This document shows positions 54,985-64,000 of a stretch of DNA of 64,000 nt, in pieces (the first letter of the stretch is position 1; each line of letters begins with the position of its first letter). Source of the DNA: Eubacteriales bacterium (GTDB taxonomy: Bacteria > Bacillota > Clostridia > Lachnospirales > Lachnospiraceae). The stretch is from positions 186,001-250,000 of the forward strand of contig JAUNGC010000001.1 of assembly GCA_030524745.1 (NCBI GenBank). Reading direction: 5' to 3'. Position numbers and translations under genes: made by a program. The notes under the pieces are model-generated. The model ran no database searches. It was not told where the DNA came from and worked only from the letters and a program-made list of their open reading frames with translations.

Positions 54985-55872
54985 CTACCTGCTGTGTCCT
55001 CCGCCTCCATGGGAGACGCCGCCGCTGGAAATGTGATGGCCGCCTCCTCCACTGCTTCGGCCTCCGCCTCCGCCGCCGTTACTCACCTCGCGTTTCCGCT
55101 TTACTACAGTCTTTCGCAGGAAAAGATCCTCCTTTTTCTTCATTCTGACCGCCCCTTCCGGCGCCAGATAAGTATTTTCATCCACAGTTTTCCGATTGGA
55201 ATAGTCTGCCAGATGCATACACAGGAAGAAAACCGTCAAAATGCCGGACGTCAGGATCACCGCCCAGACCGGGATATGGATTCCGTCCTTCATCTCCCGG
55301 GTAAAAATCTCCACATACTTCCTGTATGCTCCATACGGATCCTCATCCACATTCTCCAACGCGTCATTCAGCAGCGAGTCTATCATATCGCTGGAAAAAC
55401 GTTCCTCAACTCTTCCACAGGTACTCAGCCAGGAATAGATCCTTCCGTCCGCCTCTCTGTACCAGTTGTCCAGAAGAAGCACGCCGTCGCCATGTACCCT
55501 GTTAAATCCGAAATTATTCTCATCGTAAAAATTATCGGCATATACCATGACATATTCGGATGTATAAAGGGGACCGAGTTGATCCTCATAGCGCTCCGCA
55601 TACTCCTTCAGAGATTCATTCAGCGTAACCAGCACGATATCGCAGCCCGTTTCCAGTTCCGATTTTGCAATCAGTTTCCGCAGTTGTTCCTCTTCTGCAT
55701 CGGTCAGTACATCCGCATAGTCAAACACGCGCTCTGCAGTGGCGCAGTCCTGATTCGTGCGCACATATGCGCCGTCCGAATTTTTCATGTTCAAAATGAT
55801 CAAAACTACCGCCAGGATCACGATTATGATGAAATAAATTCTGAAATAGAAGAAAAATTTTTTGAGACTCAT
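54985..55872 (-). CDS. TPM-domain membrane protein
   Basis: A 295-residue protein. A first membrane helix (YFIIIVILAVVLIILNM) leads to a TPM domain (about 45-165): VFDYADVLTDAEEEQLRKLIAKS, GCDIVLVTLNESLKEYAERY, YADNFYDENNFGFN and GDGVLLLDNWYREADGRIYS. A second helix (VWAVILTSGILTVFFLCMHL) is followed by a basic and Gly/Ser/His-rich tail, typical of TPM proteins. It forms a pair with the zinc-ribbon protein at 55880-56860 (7 bases apart). The family is linked to photosystem repair and envelope quality control; the function in this organism is unknown. Confidence 0.88.
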   Translation of the reverse strand: MSLKKFFFYFRIYFIIIVILAVVLIILNMKNSDGAYVRTNQDCATAERVFDYADVLTDAEEEQLRKLIAKSELETGCDIVLVTLNESLKEYAERYEDQLGPLYTSEYVMVYADNFYDENNFGFNRVHGDGVLLLDNWYREADGRIYSWLSTCGRVEERFSSDMIDSLLNDALENVDEDPYGAYRKYVEIFTREMKDGIHIPVWAVILTSGILTVFFLCMHLADYSNRKTVDENTYLAPEGAVRMKKKEDLFLRKTVVKRKREVSNGGGGGGRSSGGGGHHISSGGVSHGGGGHSR

Positions 55873-55879
55873 CTTTTCG

Positions 55880-56860
55880 TCACCTCTCCAGAATTGCCCG
55901 AATCAACATCAGAATTGTCGTCACACAGGCAAAAAATGTACCGCTGTAAGCCAGCGCGCGCAATCCGGACAGCGGCATTTTTCCCACCACTTTTCCCGTC
56001 TGCCCATTCACAAAAAAGTCGTAATCTTTGTCCCGATACCGGTAGCGATACCACCAGACCGGCAGCAGCGCATAATCTTCCACTCTGTTTTTCAGATAAA
56101 TATTTCCTTCCAGCGGAGTCAGCGTAGCGTATTCGTTCATCGTTCTGTGCAACATAACCTTCGCATCCGCCCTGACTTTTTCATTTGCCCTGTCGCCCAA
56201 CTCCTCCGCCGGCTGATTATAGACCTCTGCCAGAAATCCCGACATATATTCCGGATTAAAGTCTGTCAATTCCTCATACTGATATGGCTCCATCAAATCC
56301 ATAATCTTATCATTCATCGCAATGGACGCATCCACGGGAAGCTTTTCAAAATCAGCTTCCATCTCCCGGATCACCTGATAATAGGAAGTCTCCGTATATT
56401 CCGTATCGCCACTGACCCATACTCTTTTTTTCGTTCCGGTCCCGTTATATCTGCAGTCAGCCGTCATATCATAGAGCCAGAAAGGCACATAACTTCCTTC
56501 CATCTTTTCCAGCGAAGCCTCTGAAAGAAAGGTCTCCGGCATAAACAGCCGGGAACCGCATTTTTTCATTATTTTTTCCACCGCGTCTTTTTTCCCAAGA
56601 CGAAAGGGCAGAATGAAGCGTGGCTGATACTCCTTTTCAATCCTTTCTTCAAATATATTATAATGCCCGCAGTATTCACATTTCACCGCGGAACGGTAAT
56701 CGCCCGCGTCGACGGGAGCGCCGCAGTTTTGGCAGACTTCCATTCCCCGGCATTCCTCCCTCAGATGCGTCCCGATTCCGTCGCAATAAGGACAATGCAT
56801 TTTCCTCAGCCCCGGATCGTAAACAACATTTCCGCCGCAGCTTTGACATTTATAAATCAT
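55880..56860 (-). CDS. zinc-ribbon membrane protein (TFIIB-type zinc finger)
   Basis: A 326-residue protein. Three zinc-binding pairs open it: CQSCGGNVVYDP, HCPYCDGIGTH and CQNCGAPV-CEYCGHYN. The middle (LPFRLGKKDAVEKIMKKCG, GSYVPFWLYDMTADCRY) is a family domain of unknown role and the C-terminus is one membrane helix (SGTFFACVTTILMLIRAIL). Proteins of this build often accompany TPM or SPFH-type genes. It probably acts at the membrane with its neighbour; the start ATG 56860 follows GGAGAG. Confidence 0.82.
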   Translation of the reverse strand: MIYKCQSCGGNVVYDPGLRKMHCPYCDGIGTHLREECRGMEVCQNCGAPVDAGDYRSAVKCEYCGHYNIFEERIEKEYQPRFILPFRLGKKDAVEKIMKKCGSRLFMPETFLSEASLEKMEGSYVPFWLYDMTADCRYNGTGTKKRVWVSGDTEYTETSYYQVIREMEADFEKLPVDASIAMNDKIMDLMEPYQYEELTDFNPEYMSGFLAEVYNQPAEELGDRANEKVRADAKVMLHRTMNEYATLTPLEGNIYLKNRVEDYALLPVWWYRYRYRDKDYDFFVNGQTGKVVGKMPLSGLRALAYSGTFFACVTTILMLIRAILER

Positions 56861-56978
56861 GATCCTCTCTCCTTGTTATGCAAATTGACTCTCTGCTATA
56901 TTGTAACGGAATTATATGCAGGTTTCCAGCACATTTTCCTTCCGAAGGGAGATTGATATAAACAGGAACTGTACAACC

Positions 56979-57024
56979 AAAAACAGCATGGTTTACTTTC
57001 TCAGCAAATAAACCACACTGTTTT
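56979..57024 (-). terminator. terminator after the XRE gene of the RNA-repair locus
   Basis: AAAACAG-TGGTTTA pairs with TAAACCA-CTGTTTTT (one bulge) and is followed by T5 on the minus strand. It ends the transcript of 57082-57456. Confidence 0.8.
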
Positions 57025-57081
57025 CATTCCTCTTCGCGGCTTCTTACCATTTCCGGCGAGTCCGTTTCCTTCTCATTTTCT

Positions 57082-57456
57082 TTACTTTTTCTGACATTCC
57101 ATTTCAATCTGAGACTGTTCAAGTCGTTCTAACACAACGTGAAAAGTCTTACGATTGACCTCGTTGAGATTTTTATACCGCAAAATGAGATCATAATTTC
57201 TGTCCAGTTCCTCATTCATCCTCATCTGTCCGGCAAGATTTCTCTTCACATCCGATAGCCCTAAAAGATAATCCGTTGTCACATCAAAGTATCGTGCGAC
57301 ACGCACCAGCATGTCGGGTGCTATCTCGACCTGACCATTCTCAATCTTGCTTATGGTTTGCTGTGTTGTATTCAGAGCGATGCCGAGCGCGACCTGATGA
57401 AGCCCGCGCGACTTTCGCAATTCACGTATTCGTTCTCCTACCATTTTCGAGCCCAT
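57082..57456 (-). CDS. XRE family transcriptional regulator
   Basis: A 124-residue HTH protein. IRELRKSRGLHQVALGIALNTTQQTISKIENGQVEIAPDML is the XRE domain, ending in TTDYLLGLSD; the C-terminus is helical (EELDRNYDLILRYKNLN, VLERLEQSQIEME). It follows the HD-kinase gene by 98 bases on the same strand, and a 13-base inverted repeat covers its own start codon, so it probably represses itself and maybe the RNA-repair genes. Confidence 0.92.
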   Translation of the reverse strand: MGSKMVGERIRELRKSRGLHQVALGIALNTTQQTISKIENGQVEIAPDMLVRVARYFDVTTDYLLGLSDVKRNLAGQMRMNEELDRNYDLILRYKNLNEVNRKTFHVVLERLEQSQIEMECQKK

Positions 57457-57482
57457 CCTTACTCTATATGGTACTCGAAAAT
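57443..57482. promoter_or_regulatory. dyad over the XRE start codon
   Basis: ATTTTCGAGTACCAT and ATGGGCTCGAAAAT (minus strand) form an inverted repeat with 13 matching bases around an 11-base spacer. The right arm includes the ATG at 57456. Likely autoregulatory site. Confidence 0.6.
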
Positions 57483-57554
57483 CCGCGCTTCTATACTCTG
57501 ATTTTTACATTTCAATTATTCCTAATTTTAGTATTCATATTCCGTTATGATGTT

Positions 57555-58727
57555 TTATACAAAATGCCATTCCACAGTCTTTGCTTCCTCCGGCACCGGC
57601 GGCGCGAGTTTTGCCAGCATTCGCTCAATTGCAGCCTGCGGTACTTCTTCTGTCCGGCTTTCATTTCTTTTCATCTGCTCGTTCCACTCCGTTTCCAGAT
57701 ATACGATCCGCACGCCCGCGCCGTACCGTTCAAACAGGCTGATCTGCTTCTGCCTGATATCCGGCGTAATGTTCGTTGCATTCCATATAAACGGCCGCTT
57801 TTTTCTCAAATACATTTTTGCCCGTTCCCGCGCCAGTTCAATCACGGACCCCTGCGGGTCTGTCGGTTTGATGCGCAGTTCTTTCCGGATTTCATCCAGG
57901 GATATTATCGGAACAAACGGCGCGTGGTTCTGAATCCAGGTATCCTTTCCGGTCCCCGGAAGCCCTGCCATCAGAATCACTTCCCCCCAGGTATCGTCAT
58001 ATAGACGCTGATCCGGTAAGACATTTCTGCCGGCAAGACAGGCTCTTTTTGTATAATCGTCCAGAAAAGGATAAGGGCCGTCAAAACAGCCCGCATCTTC
58101 CGCGAACATCCTGCACAATTCTATCTTTCCCAAAGATTCTTCCATGTCCGGGGCAATTCTGCCTTTTATATCCGCTTCCGCCAGGATACAAAGCAATTTC
58201 CACGAAAATCCTTTTGCCAGTTCTCCGACGGATGCAGCCTTCCTCGCTCTTTGCCCGGGGTCTTCCTGATCCGGCAAATGAATCGGCAGCATGTGATACC
58301 GGATCAGCGCGCAAACCGCTTCCCGAAGTTGCATATTCTCTTCCGTTCCGCACAGACCGCATTCTTTCCACAAAAATTCTCTCGCCATGAGACTTCCCGC
58401 CGCACTATGATGCGGGGAAGTCCATCCGCCCTCTTCCATCCTGGTGGTTCTGATTTTTCCGATATCATGCAGCAGCGCCGCAAGAAACAGGATGATCCGT
58501 TCCCGTTCGGAGCAAGTGCAAAAAGCGGCGTTTTTTATCAGTTCCTCGCATACCATCACCGTATGCGCATATACGTCCCCTTCTCCATGATAAGCCGGAT
58601 TCTGCGGCGTTTTCTTCATATCGGCAAAAAAACGTCCCACAGGCAGCGCTTCCAGTGCGTCCCATTCAATCGTAAAAACCCCGGAAGATGGTATGATATT
58701 TTTAATATTGGGAATAAAATTGATCAA
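57555..58727 (-). CDS. HD phosphohydrolase plus P-loop polynucleotide kinase-like protein
   Basis: A 390-residue two-domain protein. The HD domain (about 1-215) has ALLHDIGKIRTTR with H87/D88, WTSPHHSAAGS and the late IRYHM and EADIKGR residues. The C-terminal part (about 250-390) is a P-loop kinase with Walker A GLPGTGKDT (255-263), ISLDEIRKELR and IWNATNITPDIRQKQI, the AAA_33/polynucleotide-kinase type. In an operon with an RNA ligase this would heal RNA ends: the kinase makes 5'-phosphates and the HD part may remove 2',3'-cyclic phosphate or 3'-phosphate. Start is TTG 58727 with GGGAG 6-7 bases away. The role is inference from domains. Confidence 0.85.
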   Translation of the reverse strand: MINFIPNIKNIIPSSGVFTIEWDALEALPVGRFFADMKKTPQNPAYHGEGDVYAHTVMVCEELIKNAAFCTCSERERIILFLAALLHDIGKIRTTRMEEGGWTSPHHSAAGSLMAREFLWKECGLCGTEENMQLREAVCALIRYHMLPIHLPDQEDPGQRARKAASVGELAKGFSWKLLCILAEADIKGRIAPDMEESLGKIELCRMFAEDAGCFDGPYPFLDDYTKRACLAGRNVLPDQRLYDDTWGEVILMAGLPGTGKDTWIQNHAPFVPIISLDEIRKELRIKPTDPQGSVIELARERAKMYLRKKRPFIWNATNITPDIRQKQISLFERYGAGVRIVYLETEWNEQMKRNESRTEEVPQAAIERMLAKLAPPVPEEAKTVEWHFV

Positions 58728-58760
58728 ACCGCACTCCCTTCGCGCCCTTTTTAACCGGGT

Positions 58761-59561
58761 CTATATTTCTTTTCCGAAAAGCCTTTCTACCGGAACAGCC
58801 AGCCGGTTTGGAATAATCGGCCTGTCAATCCAGTGCGTCTCCGAGAAGTCCACGCACTGCAAAAAAGCTGCGCGGACAAATTTCATGCGGTCAACCACAC
58901 GCCCTTCTTCCTCAACCTTGATGTAAAGGCCCTCCATCCATCCGGAAAGTTCTGTTTCGTTACAACTCCGTTCGGCATCCAATCCCAGTTTTACCGCGGA
59001 ATCGTACAGGTTTTCCCGCTGATTGCCTGTCACAAACTTTGACTGTCCGAGAAGCCCAAGCATTTCTTCCTTCTGATAAACGCCCTCTCCCAGCACCGGA
59101 ACGGATACGACCGGCAGCTTTTTCGTCAGCTTTCTCCGGGACGGCGTATCAAGGAAAATTCCCGTTTCCCGGTCCAGTATATCAAACTCCAGAAAATAGT
59201 GCGGAAGCGCATCATAATACACCGTATGTTTCGCATACATCCATTCGCCGTACATGATATATCTGCTTCCCAGAACTTCGTAAAACGCCTCCTTATGAAC
59301 AGTCGCCCACTGTTTCATCAGATTAAAATGGCGCTCCCTGTATCCGCCCGTCAGATAATGTCCCCGGCTTTGCAGCAGCAATTCTCCGTTTTCCCCAAAA
59401 GAAACGGCGGAGTTTGCCCCGTCGCATTTTTCCTCTATTACCAGATGCTTCCCTGCAATTGCTTCAAACGGAATCTGGCTCAGATCCTCGTCCCCCGGCT
59501 GCAGACGCGAGCCTTCGATATGCGGGGTGCGGGGATATTTCCGTATTTCAAATTGATTCAT
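58761..59561 (-). CDS. RNA ligase (Rnl2-like, RNA_ligase family)
   Basis: A 266-residue ATP-dependent ligase. Motif I is EEKCDGAN with the AMP-accepting Lys45 (KxDG). The rest of the fold shows LLQSRGHYLTG, IMYGEWMYAKHTVYYD (motif III region), FLEFDILD, EGLYIKVEE (motif IV) and MKFVR (motif V). It lacks the C-terminal domain of T4 Rnl2. It joins 3'-OH to 5'-phosphate RNA ends. The ATG overlaps the methyltransferase stop by 4 bases (ATGA) and the HD-kinase gene is 33 bases downstream, giving a sealing-and-healing set. Confidence 0.9.
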   Translation of the reverse strand: MNQFEIRKYPRTPHIEGSRLQPGDEDLSQIPFEAIAGKHLVIEEKCDGANSAVSFGENGELLLQSRGHYLTGGYRERHFNLMKQWATVHKEAFYEVLGSRYIMYGEWMYAKHTVYYDALPHYFLEFDILDRETGIFLDTPSRRKLTKKLPVVSVPVLGEGVYQKEEMLGLLGQSKFVTGNQRENLYDSAVKLGLDAERSCNETELSGWMEGLYIKVEEEGRVVDRMKFVRAAFLQCVDFSETHWIDRPIIPNRLAVPVERLFGKEI

Positions 59562-60304
59562 CCTTTTTCATTTCTCCCATCGACTGCAGCAACCAGAAAC
59601 AAATGCCCCTCCACGCCATCGAAATGCAGCCTTGTGCATCCGGCCGCTTCAAACATCCCCGTAAGTTTTTCCTTTGTCAGCAGATGAATGTGCTCCGGGT
59701 TGTTATCCGGCTTTGACGGCACGGAAACCACCACGTATTGTTTTGCCATACGCACTGCGGCCGCAACCGCCGTTTCCGCTTCCGGGATGTGTTCCAGCAC
59801 TTCAAGCAGCGTCACTACATCAAAAGAATCGTCCGGAAACGGCTGGTCACAGATGTTTTTCTGTTGTGCATGTAACTGTGTAAAGCCTCCTGCCGCCAGT
59901 TCCTGCAAAAAGGTAACTCTTTTTTCCAGAAGATCCAATGCAGTCACCTGTACCCAGGGAAATTCCTTCACAAAAGGAATCAGAAATACGCCGCGGCCGC
60001 TCCCTGCATCCAGCATGGTTTCAAACTGCAGGGAGCGCAGAAAACCGATCGTTCTGCGCACTCTGGGCATTGTCTGCGTGCCGGACTTAAACGGGTAGAG
60101 TTTTAATTGCGCTTCCTGTCCGGCAGCGACGATCCTCTGCATTTTTCCGTCGTCAAGTTCCCCGATTTCTTTTTCCAGCAATTCTTCCGGCAGGTTCGGA
60201 ATACCGGTTCTTTTTGCATGGCCCCGAATCCAGGCCGCGGCTGTTTTCACATCGTAATATTCTGTCAGATCATTCATAAAATCACTCTTTTCTAAATGCC
60301 CCAT
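59558..60304 (-). CDS. SAM-dependent methyltransferase of the RNA-repair operon
   Basis: A 248-residue class I methyltransferase. A helical N-terminus (about 1-85) precedes motif I MLDAGSGRGVFLIP (DAGSGRG 99-105), DVVTLLEVLEHIPEA (E168, E171, H172) and YVVVSVPSKPDNNPEHIHLL. The E-x2-E-H-plus-His arrangement is seen in Hen1 3'-terminal 2'-O-methyltransferases but also in many ordinary methyltransferases, so RNA as substrate is an inference from position beside the RNA ligase. ATG 60304 follows AGGAGGGG; first gene of the operon. Confidence 0.82.
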   Translation of the reverse strand: MGHLEKSDFMNDLTEYYDVKTAAAWIRGHAKRTGIPNLPEELLEKEIGELDDGKMQRIVAAGQEAQLKLYPFKSGTQTMPRVRRTIGFLRSLQFETMLDAGSGRGVFLIPFVKEFPWVQVTALDLLEKRVTFLQELAAGGFTQLHAQQKNICDQPFPDDSFDVVTLLEVLEHIPEAETAVAAAVRMAKQYVVVSVPSKPDNNPEHIHLLTKEKLTGMFEAAGCTRLHFDGVEGHLFLVAAVDGRNEKG

Positions 60305-60387
60305 TTTCCCCTCCTGAGTCATCTATACTTTGACGGATGTCTGATAAATATACTGTAACACAATCCGTTCGTTTCATCAATTACAAA

Positions 60388-60421
60388 GACCCCGGCGTGC
60401 AAACCGCGCACACCGGGGATC
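60388..60421 (-). terminator. terminator of asnB
   Basis: CCCCGGTGTGCG pairs with GCACGCCGGGG; a short T-rich end (GTCTTTG) follows on the minus strand, 44 bases past the asnB stop. Confidence 0.65.
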
Positions 60422-60464
60422 GTCCTCTTTTGCAACTATTTTTATCAGTCTTTGCAGCCGTTCT

Positions 60465-62048
60465 TTACTTTCCGCTGTCGCCGTAGTTCGCCAGCACGCG
60501 CGCGCTGGGATCGTCCACGTTGCAGCCTTCCCATTCCTTGTTGGGCATCCAGAAGTCGGGAATCATTTTCGCCTGCCCCGGATAATACTTTTCAAAAATT
60601 TCCCTGTAAAGCAGGCTTTCCTTGGTGAAAGGCTGTGCGTAGTCATACTTTTTGCGCAGCGTTTCAAACTCTTCGTCCGTATAGAAAGCGTTCGCGTATT
60701 CTTTTAAATCGTCCACCATGCTGTGTCCCACCGCGTCGGAGAACGCCGCCTTTTCACGCCACAAAATGTTTTCGGGCAGAATGCCGTCATCCTCAAAAGC
60801 CTTGCGCAGCAGATATTTTCCTTTTCCGTAGGTGTTCATCTTCTTTGCCGGATCGATGGACATGACATAGCGCACAAAATCCAGATCGCCGAAGGGCACG
60901 CGCGCTTCCAGGCTGTTTGCGCCCAGGCATCTGTCCGCGCGCAGCACGTCGTAGCAATATAATTCACGGATTCTCTTTGCCGCCTCTTCCTGGAACGCCG
61001 CCGCGCTGGGCGCGAAATCCGTATATTTATAGCCGAACAGTTCGTCGGAAATTTCGCCGGTCAGAAGAACCTTTATATCCGTCGTCTCGTTGATCGCCTT
61101 ACATACCAGATACATGCCCATGCTGGCGCGGATCGTCGTGATATCGTAAGTCGCCAGCGCCTCAATGACAGTCTCCAGATATTCCAGCACCTGTTCTTTC
61201 GTCATGATGACTTCCGTATGATCGGCGCCGATGAAATCCGCCGCTTCCTTCGCATATTTTAAATCGATGGCGTCAATATCCATGCCGATCGCAAAGGTTT
61301 TGATGGGTTTCTTCAGAATGTTCGCTGCAATCGCGCACACAAGGCTGGAATCCAGACCGCCGGAGAGCAGAAATCCCAGCGGCGCGTCTGCGTCCAGACG
61401 TTTTCTGACGCCTTCCACAAGCTTATCATGTATGTTCTTTGTAATCGTATCCAGATCGCTGTGCACATAGCCATGCACAGTCGCAATATCCTCATATCTG
61501 ATGAAGTCGCCGTCGTAATAATAGTATCCGGGCGGGAACGGACGTATTTCATCCACCCAGCCTGCAAGGCTCTTTGCTTCGCTGGCAAATGCGATCTTTC
61601 CGGTTGCGGAATAGCCGTAAAACAGCGGACGGATGCCGATTGGATCTCTGGCCGCCAGCAGCTTCTTACTCTTACCGTCATAGATCACGCACGCATATTC
61701 CGCATCCAGATGGGAAAACATTTCCAGTCCGTATTCCGCATACAGCGGCAGCAGGACTTCACAGTCCGAACCGCTCTTAAAAACGTAGCCCCGCTCTTCC
61801 AGTTCCTTTTTGATCGTGCGGAATCCGTAGATTTCGCCGTTGCATACCACCCAGCTTCCATCCCGGAAAAAAGGCTGCATGCCGTCCGGCGTCAGTCCCA
61901 TGATCGCCAGTCTGGCAAATCCCATCAGGCCGAATTCCGTTTCCTCAACCTGCAGCGCGTCGGGCCCGCGCATTTGAGTTTTCTTCAGGTAGCCTTCCAT
62001 CTTTTCCTTACTGATGTCTTTTCCCGCGTAACACATGATTGAACACAT
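60465..62048 (-). CDS. asnB: asparagine synthase (glutamine-hydrolysing)
   Basis: A 527-residue enzyme that makes asparagine from aspartate, glutamine and ATP. It begins MCSIMCYAGKD; processed Met leaves the N-terminal nucleophile Cys2. The glutaminase part has GFARLAIMGLTPDG and VCNGEIYGFRTIKKEL; the synthetase part has the pyrophosphatase motif FLLSGGLDSSLVCAIA and the ADRCLGANSLEARVPFGD block. ATG at 62048 fits GGAGGG at 7-8 bases; the longer in-frame extension to 62132 overlaps the T-box terminator and is not used. The leader is an Asn-type T-box, so it is induced by uncharged tRNA-Asn. Confidence 0.97.
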   Translation of the reverse strand: MCSIMCYAGKDISKEKMEGYLKKTQMRGPDALQVEETEFGLMGFARLAIMGLTPDGMQPFFRDGSWVVCNGEIYGFRTIKKELEERGYVFKSGSDCEVLLPLYAEYGLEMFSHLDAEYACVIYDGKSKKLLAARDPIGIRPLFYGYSATGKIAFASEAKSLAGWVDEIRPFPPGYYYYDGDFIRYEDIATVHGYVHSDLDTITKNIHDKLVEGVRKRLDADAPLGFLLSGGLDSSLVCAIAANILKKPIKTFAIGMDIDAIDLKYAKEAADFIGADHTEVIMTKEQVLEYLETVIEALATYDITTIRASMGMYLVCKAINETTDIKVLLTGEISDELFGYKYTDFAPSAAAFQEEAAKRIRELYCYDVLRADRCLGANSLEARVPFGDLDFVRYVMSIDPAKKMNTYGKGKYLLRKAFEDDGILPENILWREKAAFSDAVGHSMVDDLKEYANAFYTDEEFETLRKKYDYAQPFTKESLLYREIFEKYYPGQAKMIPDFWMPNKEWEGCNVDDPSARVLANYGDSGK

Positions 62049-62065
62049 AAACAATCCCTCCGAAT

Positions 62066-62412
62066 AAAAAATTAAGCAGCCATTTGTCCCAATGAAAATA
62101 GGACGAATAGCTGCTATTATCCGCGGTGCCACCTAACTTGCCGCACGCCCTTGTGCGACCCCTTTTTCGCGTTCTCATGAAACGCTATCCCAATAACGTG
62201 GGACTCCGGCTCCCTTACTCGGAAATCGCAATACAAACCAAACCTTCCCTGTCATCAATCCTGTGACGCTCCGGTTCCGGTCTGTGAACTCTCCCCTTTT
62301 GGTTCGCAGCTCGGAAGTGTTCTTTCATACATCCGCTGTACGGGACTCCCACCGACGCCCGCTCTCTGAACCAACTGCATGCATTACTTTTCTTCGTCAT
62401 CGCTTTTAACTG
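62066..62412 (-). promoter_or_regulatory. T-box leader of asnB (Asn)
   Basis: The minus strand has the T-box core AGGTGGCACCGCGG at 62122-62135, followed by a terminator with stem AGCAGC...GCTGCT and T run at 62066-62115 that competes with the antiterminator. Upstream lies a stem I-like region with AGAGAGCGGGCG and a specifier loop GAAAGAACACTTCCGAG; AAC (62319-62321) fits an Asn codon. Readthrough should occur when tRNA-Asn is uncharged. Confidence 0.9.
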
Positions 62413-62418
62413 TTTAAC

Positions 62419-62447
62419 ACGATATCACATCAACTTCAAGTTGTCAA
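62419..62447 (-). promoter_or_regulatory. promoter of the asnB T-box transcript
   Basis: Minus strand TTGACA (62442-62447), 17 bases, TATCGT (62419-62424). The -35 box overlaps the GH5 gene stop codon (TCTTGACA). Confidence 0.7.
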
Positions 62448-64000
62448 GACGCGATTTTAAACTGTAATTCCTTTATGATGATCTTTCCCGCTTCCGTTTC
62501 CAGCCGCACCGCGGCTTCTCCTGTTTCAAAACCGGCCACAGCCAGAGGCACGGTCACCTCCCGCATCCCGCTTTCCACCAAAATCCTTTGTTTTTCTCCG
62601 TCTCTTAAGCCCGCCAGTAAAACCGCGTCTTCCTCCGCCTCCAAAGAAATCGTCAGACAGAGTTTTCCGGTCATGCTTTTCTCATAATGGAAACGATAGC
62701 AGGCGAATTCTCCTTTCTTCAGGACCAGCGCCAGTCTGTCCCATCCGCAGTCAAATGCAAACTCCTGCTCCTTTTTCGGGTACAACTCGCAGATTTCCAT
62801 TCCGGCGCCCTTGCGGTAAAGCGCGCCGCTTTCAGAACGTTCCCGCGTTTCGGCTCCCGCATCCGAAGCTTTGGCGGCAGCTTTTTGGGCATGATAAGAG
62901 ATTCCCTCGCCGGGATATTCGTCAAAATCCACACCGCATACGGTAAAGGGCGGCTTGCGGAACACGTGGTTCGTGATTTCGGGATGGTGTTCGCAGTTTT
63001 CATAAAGCACATTTTCCAGATACTCATCCAAAATCTTCTGTGCCCGCGCAAAGCCGGGATGCGGCCCTCTGTCCAGATACCGCAGAATTTCCTCATAACC
63101 TTCGGGTCTGCGGATGGAACAGGGGGAATTGGTGCAGTCCATCTTTTTCCAGGGCCAGATATTATAGCCGATTCCCATGGATTCCGCCAGCGGATAAAGC
63201 GCCGCGTACCAGGTATTCTTATTTTCTCCCGTCTCTCCCATCCACAGCGGCACGTTCAGTCTGTCCGCAGCTTCCACATAACGGGCCAGGCATTCGGTAT
63301 CCGGCGGCTCCGCATAACGGTGGAAATGCAGCACCATATTATCGTCATATTTTTTATGGAAAATCCGCACATCCGTGGCCCAGTGAGGTCCTTCCAGCGT
63401 AACGATATGAACCTGGTCCACCCTGCGGATTCTCTCAATGGCCTCTTCGTAAAACAGTTCCAGTTTGGGAATCAGCCAGTCAAAATCGCCGTTTCCCGCC
63501 GTCGGAGGTATGACCGGCTCATTTAACAGATCATAGCCGCCCACCACGGCCCGGTCATGATAACGCTGCGCCAGCTTTTCCCAAAGCGCCAGCCCTTTTT
63601 CCCAGCAGTCCCGGTCAAGAAACAATCTGGGGACATTGTCCACGGAGTCGTCGATGTTTGATCCTGTCTGCCCGCCGGGCGCGCCATGCAGATCCAGAAA
63701 CGCATAGATCCCCGCCTCTTCACACCACAAAAGGCATCTGTCCAGAAGCCGGAAGCCTTCCTCTTTCCAGACAATACCCGGTCCGTCCTCCATAAAGTGC
63801 CGGTAACTGAATGGAATCCTTACGGAATTATACCCCAGTTGCTTCATTGCAAAAATATCTTCCCGGCGCACATAGTTTTCCCGGTATTTTTTCCAGAAGC
63901 GATCCGCATATTCCTTTCCGGTCAATTCCTCCACGCACTTTTCGATCCGCGCCGGACGGTCGAACCGTTCTCCGGTCGCTTTCCACATATAGCCTTCCTG
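62444..64000 (-). CDS. glycoside hydrolase family 5 protein (partial, N-terminus off right edge)
   Basis: The frame is open to the right edge (QEGYMWK precedes MWKATGER), so the N-terminus is outside; 518 residues are visible. GH5 marks: YNSVRIPFSYRHFM, GIYAFLDLHGAPGGQTG, the acid/base Glu in GGYDLLNEPVIP, HFHRYAEPPD and the nucleophile Glu in WMGETGENKNTWY, then NIWPWKKMD. The C-terminal 150 residues form a beta-sandwich (SMTGKLCLTISLEAEEDA). It cleaves beta-glucan-type glycosides; the visible part has no signal peptide, so it may act inside the cell on oligosaccharides. Confidence 0.92.
   Translation of the reverse strand, partial: QEGYMWKATGERFDRPARIEKCVEELTGKEYADRFWKKYRENYVRREDIFAMKQLGYNSVRIPFSYRHFMEDGPGIVWKEEGFRLLDRCLLWCEEAGIYAFLDLHGAPGGQTGSNIDDSVDNVPRLFLDRDCWEKGLALWEKLAQRYHDRAVVGGYDLLNEPVIPPTAGNGDFDWLIPKLELFYEEAIERIRRVDQVHIVTLEGPHWATDVRIFHKKYDDNMVLHFHRYAEPPDTECLARYVEAADRLNVPLWMGETGENKNTWYAALYPLAESMGIGYNIWPWKKMDCTNSPCSIRRPEGYEEILRYLDRGPHPGFARAQKILDEYLENVLYENCEHHPEITNHVFRKPPFTVCGVDFDEYPGEGISYHAQKAAAKASDAGAETRERSESGALYRKGAGMEICELYPKKEQEFAFDCGWDRLALVLKKGEFACYRFHYEKSMTGKLCLTISLEAEEDAVLLAGLRDGEKQRILVESGMREVTVPLAVAGFETGEAAVRLETEAGKIIIKELQFKIAS

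Follow-up and report, generated by a model that had tools for sequence, protein, structure and literature searches.

A conserved trio of genes

Three minus-strand genes in a 64,000-nucleotide stretch of the genome of a gut Eubacteriales bacterium from the family Lachnospiraceae (GenBank assembly GCA_030524745.1, contig JAUNGC010000001.1, positions 186,001 to 250,000; hereafter the window, numbered from its first letter) probably serve in RNA end repair, and most of 80 related loci show the same order of methyltransferase, ligase and HD-kinase, which is beyond chance. The pair of an HD-Pnk and a ligase is already known, and the conserved third gene, the methyltransferase, is the new part. Identified by open reading frame (ORF) and Pfam, the first two genes encode a class I S-adenosylmethionine-dependent methyltransferase (MT, 59558..60304, 248 amino acids (aa) from the ATG at 60304) and an ATP-dependent RNA ligase with a single nucleotidyltransferase domain (LIG, 58761..59561, 266 aa); the third encodes a protein of HD-Pnk type with an N-terminal HD phosphohydrolase and a C-terminal P-loop polynucleotide kinase-like domain (HDP, 57555..58727, 390 aa, TTG start). 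ORFs and coordinates agree with the initial annotation of this DNA, including the overlap of 4 bases between MT and LIG (59558-59561) and the gap of 33 bases from the LIG stop to the HDP start, the motifs that it had cited, the KCDG of the ligase and the GLPGTGKDT of a kinase fused to an HD domain, are present, and its naming of the three genes, the class I methyltransferase included, agrees with Pfam.

The initial annotation had staked its reading on homologues of the three proteins lying together in other genomes, and they do. An alignment of seven ligases was used to scan a collection of genomes from 84,980 species, and the best 80 of at least 485 confirmed relatives were analysed, so that the counts describe close ligases. 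HDP lies within 500 nucleotides (nt) of the ligase in 78 of these 80 loci and within 3 kb in the other two, and MT stands immediately upstream of the ligase in 60 loci and no more than 4 kb from it in seven more, with a contig end too near for a decision in a further six. Spacing between the genes is tight, with medians of 2 nt (59 pairs) and -0.5 nt (76 pairs), start and spacing values being blurred by the calling of genes as longest ORFs. Eleven loci hold the trio with no other co-directional gene within 200 nt, the sequence continuing on both sides.

The three proteins are also inherited together. Their pairwise distances correlate (r 0.765, 0.759 and 0.719, with 0 of 999 permutations as high in a Mantel test) over the 65 of 81 rows in which all three ORFs were called, a set that includes four ligase pairs at least 97% identical. 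When 101 ligases were placed in a tree, all MT-bearing rows fell in one group of 81 (support 99/99), of which 68 have MT, seven do not and six are cut by contig ends, and the 20 phage, plasmid and other ligases fell outside it. The simplest reading of this tree would be that MT was gained once and lost about seven times, having passed between Bacillota, Bacteroidota and, judging by a handful of metagenome bins, further phyla. The rows are mostly metagenome assemblies, and the labels Planctomycetota, Chloroflexota and Actinomycetota rest on few bins.

A search of 397 genomes from the window's family detected a ligase in 13 and MT in five (E≤1e-15). HDP lies beside the ligase in all 13 ligase loci, and four of the five genomes with MT hold the complete trio; in the fifth (G713, L217:702-1971, minus strand) a shortened MT frame overlaps the HDP frame and no ligase was found in the genome, a pattern that suggests either decay of the trio or an error of assembly. 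Family ligases of the window's type (above 470 bits) are accompanied by MT in four of five cases, and the distant ones (below 385 bits) in none of eight. In G711, the sole further genome listed for the window's genus, neither MT nor the ligase gave a match; the trio is thus patchy, as is common for accessory genes. A phage-borne version of the trio was considered and rejected: 75 stretches of viral contigs fit the MT pattern and none of them is a relative, and among 80 viral ligase loci HDP was present in the fetched stretch of four of the 16 closest (adjacent in two) and of none of the 64 others, with MT in none of the 80.

Predicted activities of the three proteins

LIG matches the Pfam family RNA_ligase (PF09414) with 118 bits at a curated cut-off of 27. 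The stretches KCDGAN (K45), SRG (65-67), GEW (105-107), EFD (125-127) and EGLYIK (210-215) as well as K227 are all conserved in the family (the alignment held 33 of 64 length-filtered ligases and LIG itself), and we take them to be nucleotidyltransferase motifs I, III, IIIa, IV and V, the last at K227. The modelled fold is closest to RNA ligases, with NgrRnl and T4 Rnl2 almost level and DNA ligases ranking lower, and its alignment spans residues 4 to about 238 or 257 of 266, which leaves scant room for a C-terminal domain of the T4 Rnl2 type. PDB sequence searches with LIG alone and with the seven-row profile gave no match at E≤0.001.

HDP joins an HD domain (PF01966, residues 68-152, 34.1 bits) to an AAA_33 domain (PF13671, residues 250-377, 92.2 bits) whose Walker A region reads GLPGTGKDT. 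Residues H55, H87, D88, D186, G258/G260/K261, D278, R281, R354 and R358, presumably the HD metal ligands, Walker A, catalytic Asp and lid Arg, are kept in 97% or more of the 65 rows. By domain order, residues and ligase neighbour HDP appears to be an HD-Pnk-type enzyme, with predicted 5'-OH kinase and 2',3'-phosphoesterase activities. End healing followed by sealing of RNA, as the initial annotation had proposed, is well supported by family, fold, active-site residues and neighbourhood. HDP without a ligase partner also exists, as a lone copy in genome G051. A full-length HD-kinase (L003:1492-2664, minus strand; 51% identity to HDP) sits beside a protein that reads as patatin-like, in a genome without a ligase match.

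MT matches generic methyltransferase models of Pfam (best 52.1 bits), and its predicted structure (pLDDT 90) is a helical N-terminus followed by a standard Rossmann methyltransferase. Besides motif I (LDAGSGRG) it carries E174-x-x-E177-H178 and H211-x-H213, numbered here in the 254-aa form that starts at 60322. All five of these Glu and His residues are invariant across 51 rows (50 of 66 MTs and that of the window), and in a wider set of 65 rows E174, E177, H178, H211 and H213 are kept in 64, 65, 64, 64 and 63, respectively. On sequence comparison the ExxEH with its downstream HxH resembles the metal-site pattern of Hen1, in which the metal is bound by the two Glu and the His of ExxEH; H211 is presumably the counterpart of the further His of Hen1. 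The MT profile matched the PDB chain 3jwi (labelled Methyltransferase type 12; E 1.4e-6), which we take to be Clostridium Hen1, aligning its EVIEH to the EVLEH of MT, and two Hen1-labelled chains (E 2.7e-4). A canonical Hen1 gave no match in the window's genome.

The proposed repair pathway

We propose that the trio is a dedicated operon for the repair of RNA breaks in which HDP, LIG and MT would work on one RNA. HDP would heal the ends, with the HD domain taking off a 3' phosphate or 2',3'-cyclic phosphate and the kinase domain phosphorylating the 5'-OH; MT would most likely methylate the ribose 2'-OH of the broken 3' end ahead of sealing, as Hen1 does, and might additionally assist the ligase; LIG would then adenylylate the 5' phosphate and seal. 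A 2'-O-methyl group at the junction would block recutting by the same transesterifying nuclease. The damage may come from ribotoxins or anticodon nucleases, as the initial annotation inferred, or from ADP-ribosylating toxins. Taken whole, with methylation of the broken 3' end before sealing, we give this explanation a slightly better than even chance. That MT acts on the repaired RNA is fairly probable, while the identification of this action with Hen1-like 2'-O-methylation, a reasoned guess from operon logic and metal-site residues, is put forward tentatively, at somewhat below even chances.

A number of findings weigh against this explanation. MT scores 17.3 bits on the Hen1 model TIGR04074, whose cut-off is 340 (the top score of four MTs was 27.1), and scores higher on the NCBIfam models of MftM (69.7) and UbiG (34.1), which methylate small molecules, so that MT lies outside the Hen1 family. 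Its residues 1-97 are predicted to be helical, with bridge residues single only, and lack a Hen1-like beta-sheet domain; the ligase-activating N-terminal domain of Hen1 contains a beta-sheet (PMC4411300). UbiG carries ExxEH too and scores like 3jwi in the MT comparison, so the motif is not exclusive to Hen1. Fold searches with two programs returned generic methyltransferases and named no Hen1 among the 50 matches listed for each, an absence that excludes nothing. The Hen1-type methyltransferase of the initial annotation therefore stands as far as the conserved metal-site motif is concerned and falls with respect to family and fold. Seven of the 80 loci are without MT despite at least 1 kb of upstream sequence, so MT is not essential, and the MT-bearing group of ligases rests on a midpoint root and the 20 outside rows.

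The same findings bear on another possibility, namely that the operon does repair RNA and MT modifies something else on it, such as an anticodon-loop base or an end phosphate, or is mainly a structural partner of the ligase. Conservation of the trio shows that MT belongs to it and is silent on the target, the top NCBIfam matches are MftM and UbiG, and the folds are generic. The invariance of ExxEH and HxH is as expected for 2'-O-methylation, even if the former is shared with UbiG. We consider this possibility rather unlikely. Both it and the assisting role that we propose for MT touch on a known operon. The initial annotation took the layout of HD-kinase and ligase to be uncharacterised, wrongly: the Deinococcus radiodurans operon DRB0098-DRB0099-DRB0100, which sets a ligase next to an HD phosphatase-polynucleotide kinase, had been reported in 2005-2007 (PMC1997131, PMC1274311, PMC1978522). 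Its ligase (DRB0100) bound AMP and sealed neither DNA nor RNA in vitro, DNA ligation was likewise unseen with DRB0100 plus its two operon partners, and the authors proposed that an additional protein needed for sealing was missing (PMC1997131). A partner role for MT is testable because that ligase failed to seal and a missing partner was proposed. The failed sealing speaks against our pathway, as do the mutants of the HD residues of the Deinococcus HD-kinase, which retained 3'-phosphatase activity that the authors ascribed to a possible contaminant (PMC1997131), and, in the literature on this operon, the full radiation resistance of the DRB0100 disruptant (PMC1997131, PMC1274311, PMC1978522).

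The trio could also be attributed to the repair of DNA, with the HD-kinase and ligase mending nicks, as was formerly proposed for the Deinococcus operon. The HD-Pnk of Runella slithyformis, said to have been characterised by Munir and Shuman in 2017, reportedly acts on DNA as well as RNA ends, which we count in favour of DNA repair. A DNA oligonucleotide served as a substrate for phosphorylation by the Deinococcus HD-PNK, and radiation induces the operon (PMC1997131). On the other side stand the lack of DNA or RNA ligation by DRB0100 and the resistant disruptant just mentioned, the LIG model with its nearest matches among RNA ligases, and the presence of one RtcB and some LigT/2H-type RNA-end enzymes among the neighbours of the trio. 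DNA repair is in our view improbable.

Genes beside the trio

Pfam families were compared between 129 of 162 co-directional neighbours in the 80 loci and 129 control ORFs from the same contigs; the controls were drawn from the 356 that reach 140 aa among 463 non-operon ORFs, some of them antisense. The neighbours include NADAR (10), ADP-ribosylglycohydrolase (8), NMNAT-like CTP_transf_like (7), LigT-type (3) and macro (3) genes; ADP-ribosylglycohydrolase occurs twice among the controls, and the 25 families listed for them do not include NADAR. The excess of NADAR (p~0.005) and ADP_ribosyl_GH (p~0.05) is suggestive, and that of Macro has p~0.31; for NADAR, CTP_transf_like and Macro a control count of 1 each was entered, which by the sort order of the listing is an upper limit for NADAR and for the other two is an assumption. 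These values are weakened by the relatedness of the loci and by the inspection of several families, and controls share neighbour families, with LRR_5 in 10 neighbours and four controls, Metallophos in five and two, and GP30.3 in four and two. A cluster of Ser/Thr kinases in 29 loci was dismissed as a product of single-linkage clustering, no kinase family being among the 25 neighbour Pfam families listed.

ADP-ribose-processing neighbours suggest toxin damage, and NADAR has been tied to RNA-repair systems in a published survey (PMC9503650). They would also fit a role of the three proteins in nucleotide or ADP-ribose metabolism, with the kinase, HD and methyltransferase domains acting on small molecules derived from NAD or ADP-ribose and the ligase-like protein serving as an adenylyltransferase only. 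NADAR, ADP-ribosylglycohydrolase, macro and NMNAT-like genes do adjoin the trio in some relatives, an unlinked NMNAT-like and NADAR fusion is present in the window's genome, and DRB0100 was adenylated without ligating (PMC1997131). However, LIG retains all ligase motifs, motif V (K227) included, the eleven self-contained loci have no further co-directional gene within 200 nt, and ADP-ribose enzymes are present in published RNA-repair systems as well (PMC9503650), so that we regard a purely metabolic role as very improbable.

Individual loci show varied arrangements of these genes. A rearranged operon (L057:3209-7804, plus strand) begins with MT and HDP, continues with an NMNAT-NADAR fusion and a NADAR gene and ends with the ligase; a NADAR-macro fusion sits between MT and LIG in L111; an RtcB gene lies about 2 kb downstream of the trio in L074; and just upstream of the trio in L053 (4944-6161, plus strand) a weak 2H-phosphodiesterase match is joined to a low-molecular-weight phosphatase domain, possibly an RNA-end enzyme. 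The fusion in the window's genome (L211:1486-2568, minus strand, on contig C3 of G000) combines a domain that reads as NMNAT-like with a NADAR domain recognised by Pfam, and similar fusions adjoin the trio in L057 and, with extra domains, in L077. The window's genome also encodes RtcB away from the trio.

A wider proposal, more doubtful than the pathway itself, is that a non-Hen1 RNA methyltransferase was recruited once to an HD-Pnk/ligase pair and spread among gut anaerobes, that it 2'-O-methylates the junction as a mark and that a ligase made of the catalytic domain only depends on it to seal efficiently, and that the NADAR and ADP-ribosylglycohydrolase neighbours place it within a broader reaction to toxins that cleave RNA or ADP-ribosylate it. 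If true, the Hen1 logic would have been invented a second time, independently, and the failed in vitro ligation by a relative without an MT-like partner could be explained. To our knowledge only Hen1 systems couple RNA sealing with methylation of the mended site; a second, non-Hen1 methyltransferase, retained by many gut bacteria alongside a different healing and sealing pair, would make the marking of repair sites look like a general need. It would also give a lead on the agents that cut RNA in the gut, and three small proteins are amenable to in vitro tests.

The surrounding locus

On the minus strand the order is an asparagine synthetase gene, a terminator-like hairpin (60390..60418; 12 pairs, nine of them G-C) and the tightly packed MT, LIG and HDP. 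The hairpin fits transcription of the trio as a separate unit; it is a consensus match only, seven such sites lying in 3.9 kb where 4.1 are expected. The sequence AGGAGG lies 5 nt ahead of the MT ATG at 60304, and the longest MT ORF begins at 60322 (254 aa). The initial annotation counted the XRE-type regulator gene downstream (57082-57456, minus strand) to the operon. Of the 79 loci in which HDP was called, 70 extend at least 1 kb past it, and just one of the 79 holds a similar protein (E≤1e-5), 1.2 kb off and on the opposite strand; for this reason the gene is left out of the set. The dyad noted at its start codon was confirmed as a perfect 9-bp inverted repeat, ATTTTCGAG/CTCGAAAAT, which brackets the ATG (57443-57451 and 57474-57482) and is possibly an autoregulatory operator. 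Further along lie genes for a zinc-ribbon-like protein without a Pfam match (55880-56860, minus strand) and, after it, a Gly-rich protein (54985-55872, minus strand) that reads like a TPM-domain membrane protein. No Rfam family reached its gathering threshold in 55500-62500, and no tRNA genes were found within the window. Defence models of PADLOC-DB gave weak generic matches for MT (mad2, 33.5 bits) and HDP (Cas3, 24.8 bits) and none for LIG.

Comparison with known systems

In repair of the T4 type, T4 Pnkp and Rnl1/Rnl2 provide kinase, phosphatase and ligase, which act sequentially on broken tRNA. These functions are common to the window, whereas the T4 system is phage-encoded, has a different phosphatase family and no methyltransferase. 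Closer is the Runella HD-Pnk, like HDP a single chain of an N-terminal HD phosphoesterase and a C-terminal P-loop kinase with an adjacent ligase gene; the window adds a conserved MT upstream of the ligase, and we know of no methyltransferase in the Runella report. The trio of HD-Pnk, ligase and methyltransferase was not found in the literature searched, and the RNA-repair survey of Burroughs and Aravind (2016), outside that search, may list it.

The Deinococcus operon shares with the window an HD-phosphatase/kinase and a ligase reduced to the adenylation domain. Its middle gene is the macro-like DRB0099 and not a methyltransferase, and it is through this gene that its link to ADP-ribose runs, which we liken to that of the trio. 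A Deinococcus plasmid ligase (L048, compared here in place of DRB0100) reaches only 38 bits with LIG.

With Pnkp1-Rnl-Hen1 the window shares the three-protein logic of end healing, sealing and a methyltransferase, together with ExxEH in the latter (3jwi). Mending of a tRNA cut by a ribotoxin requires all three proteins of that system, with Hen1 proposed as an activator of the ligase (PMC4411300). The window differs from it in that the phosphatase is an HD domain, the ligase consists of a nucleotidyltransferase domain of 266 aa only, and MT is outside the Hen1 family and without a Hen1-like N-terminal domain. In species with Pnkp1-Rnl-Hen1 the hen1 gene lies far from the rnl-pnkp1 operon (PMC4411300), whereas in the window the methyltransferase gene is within the operon.

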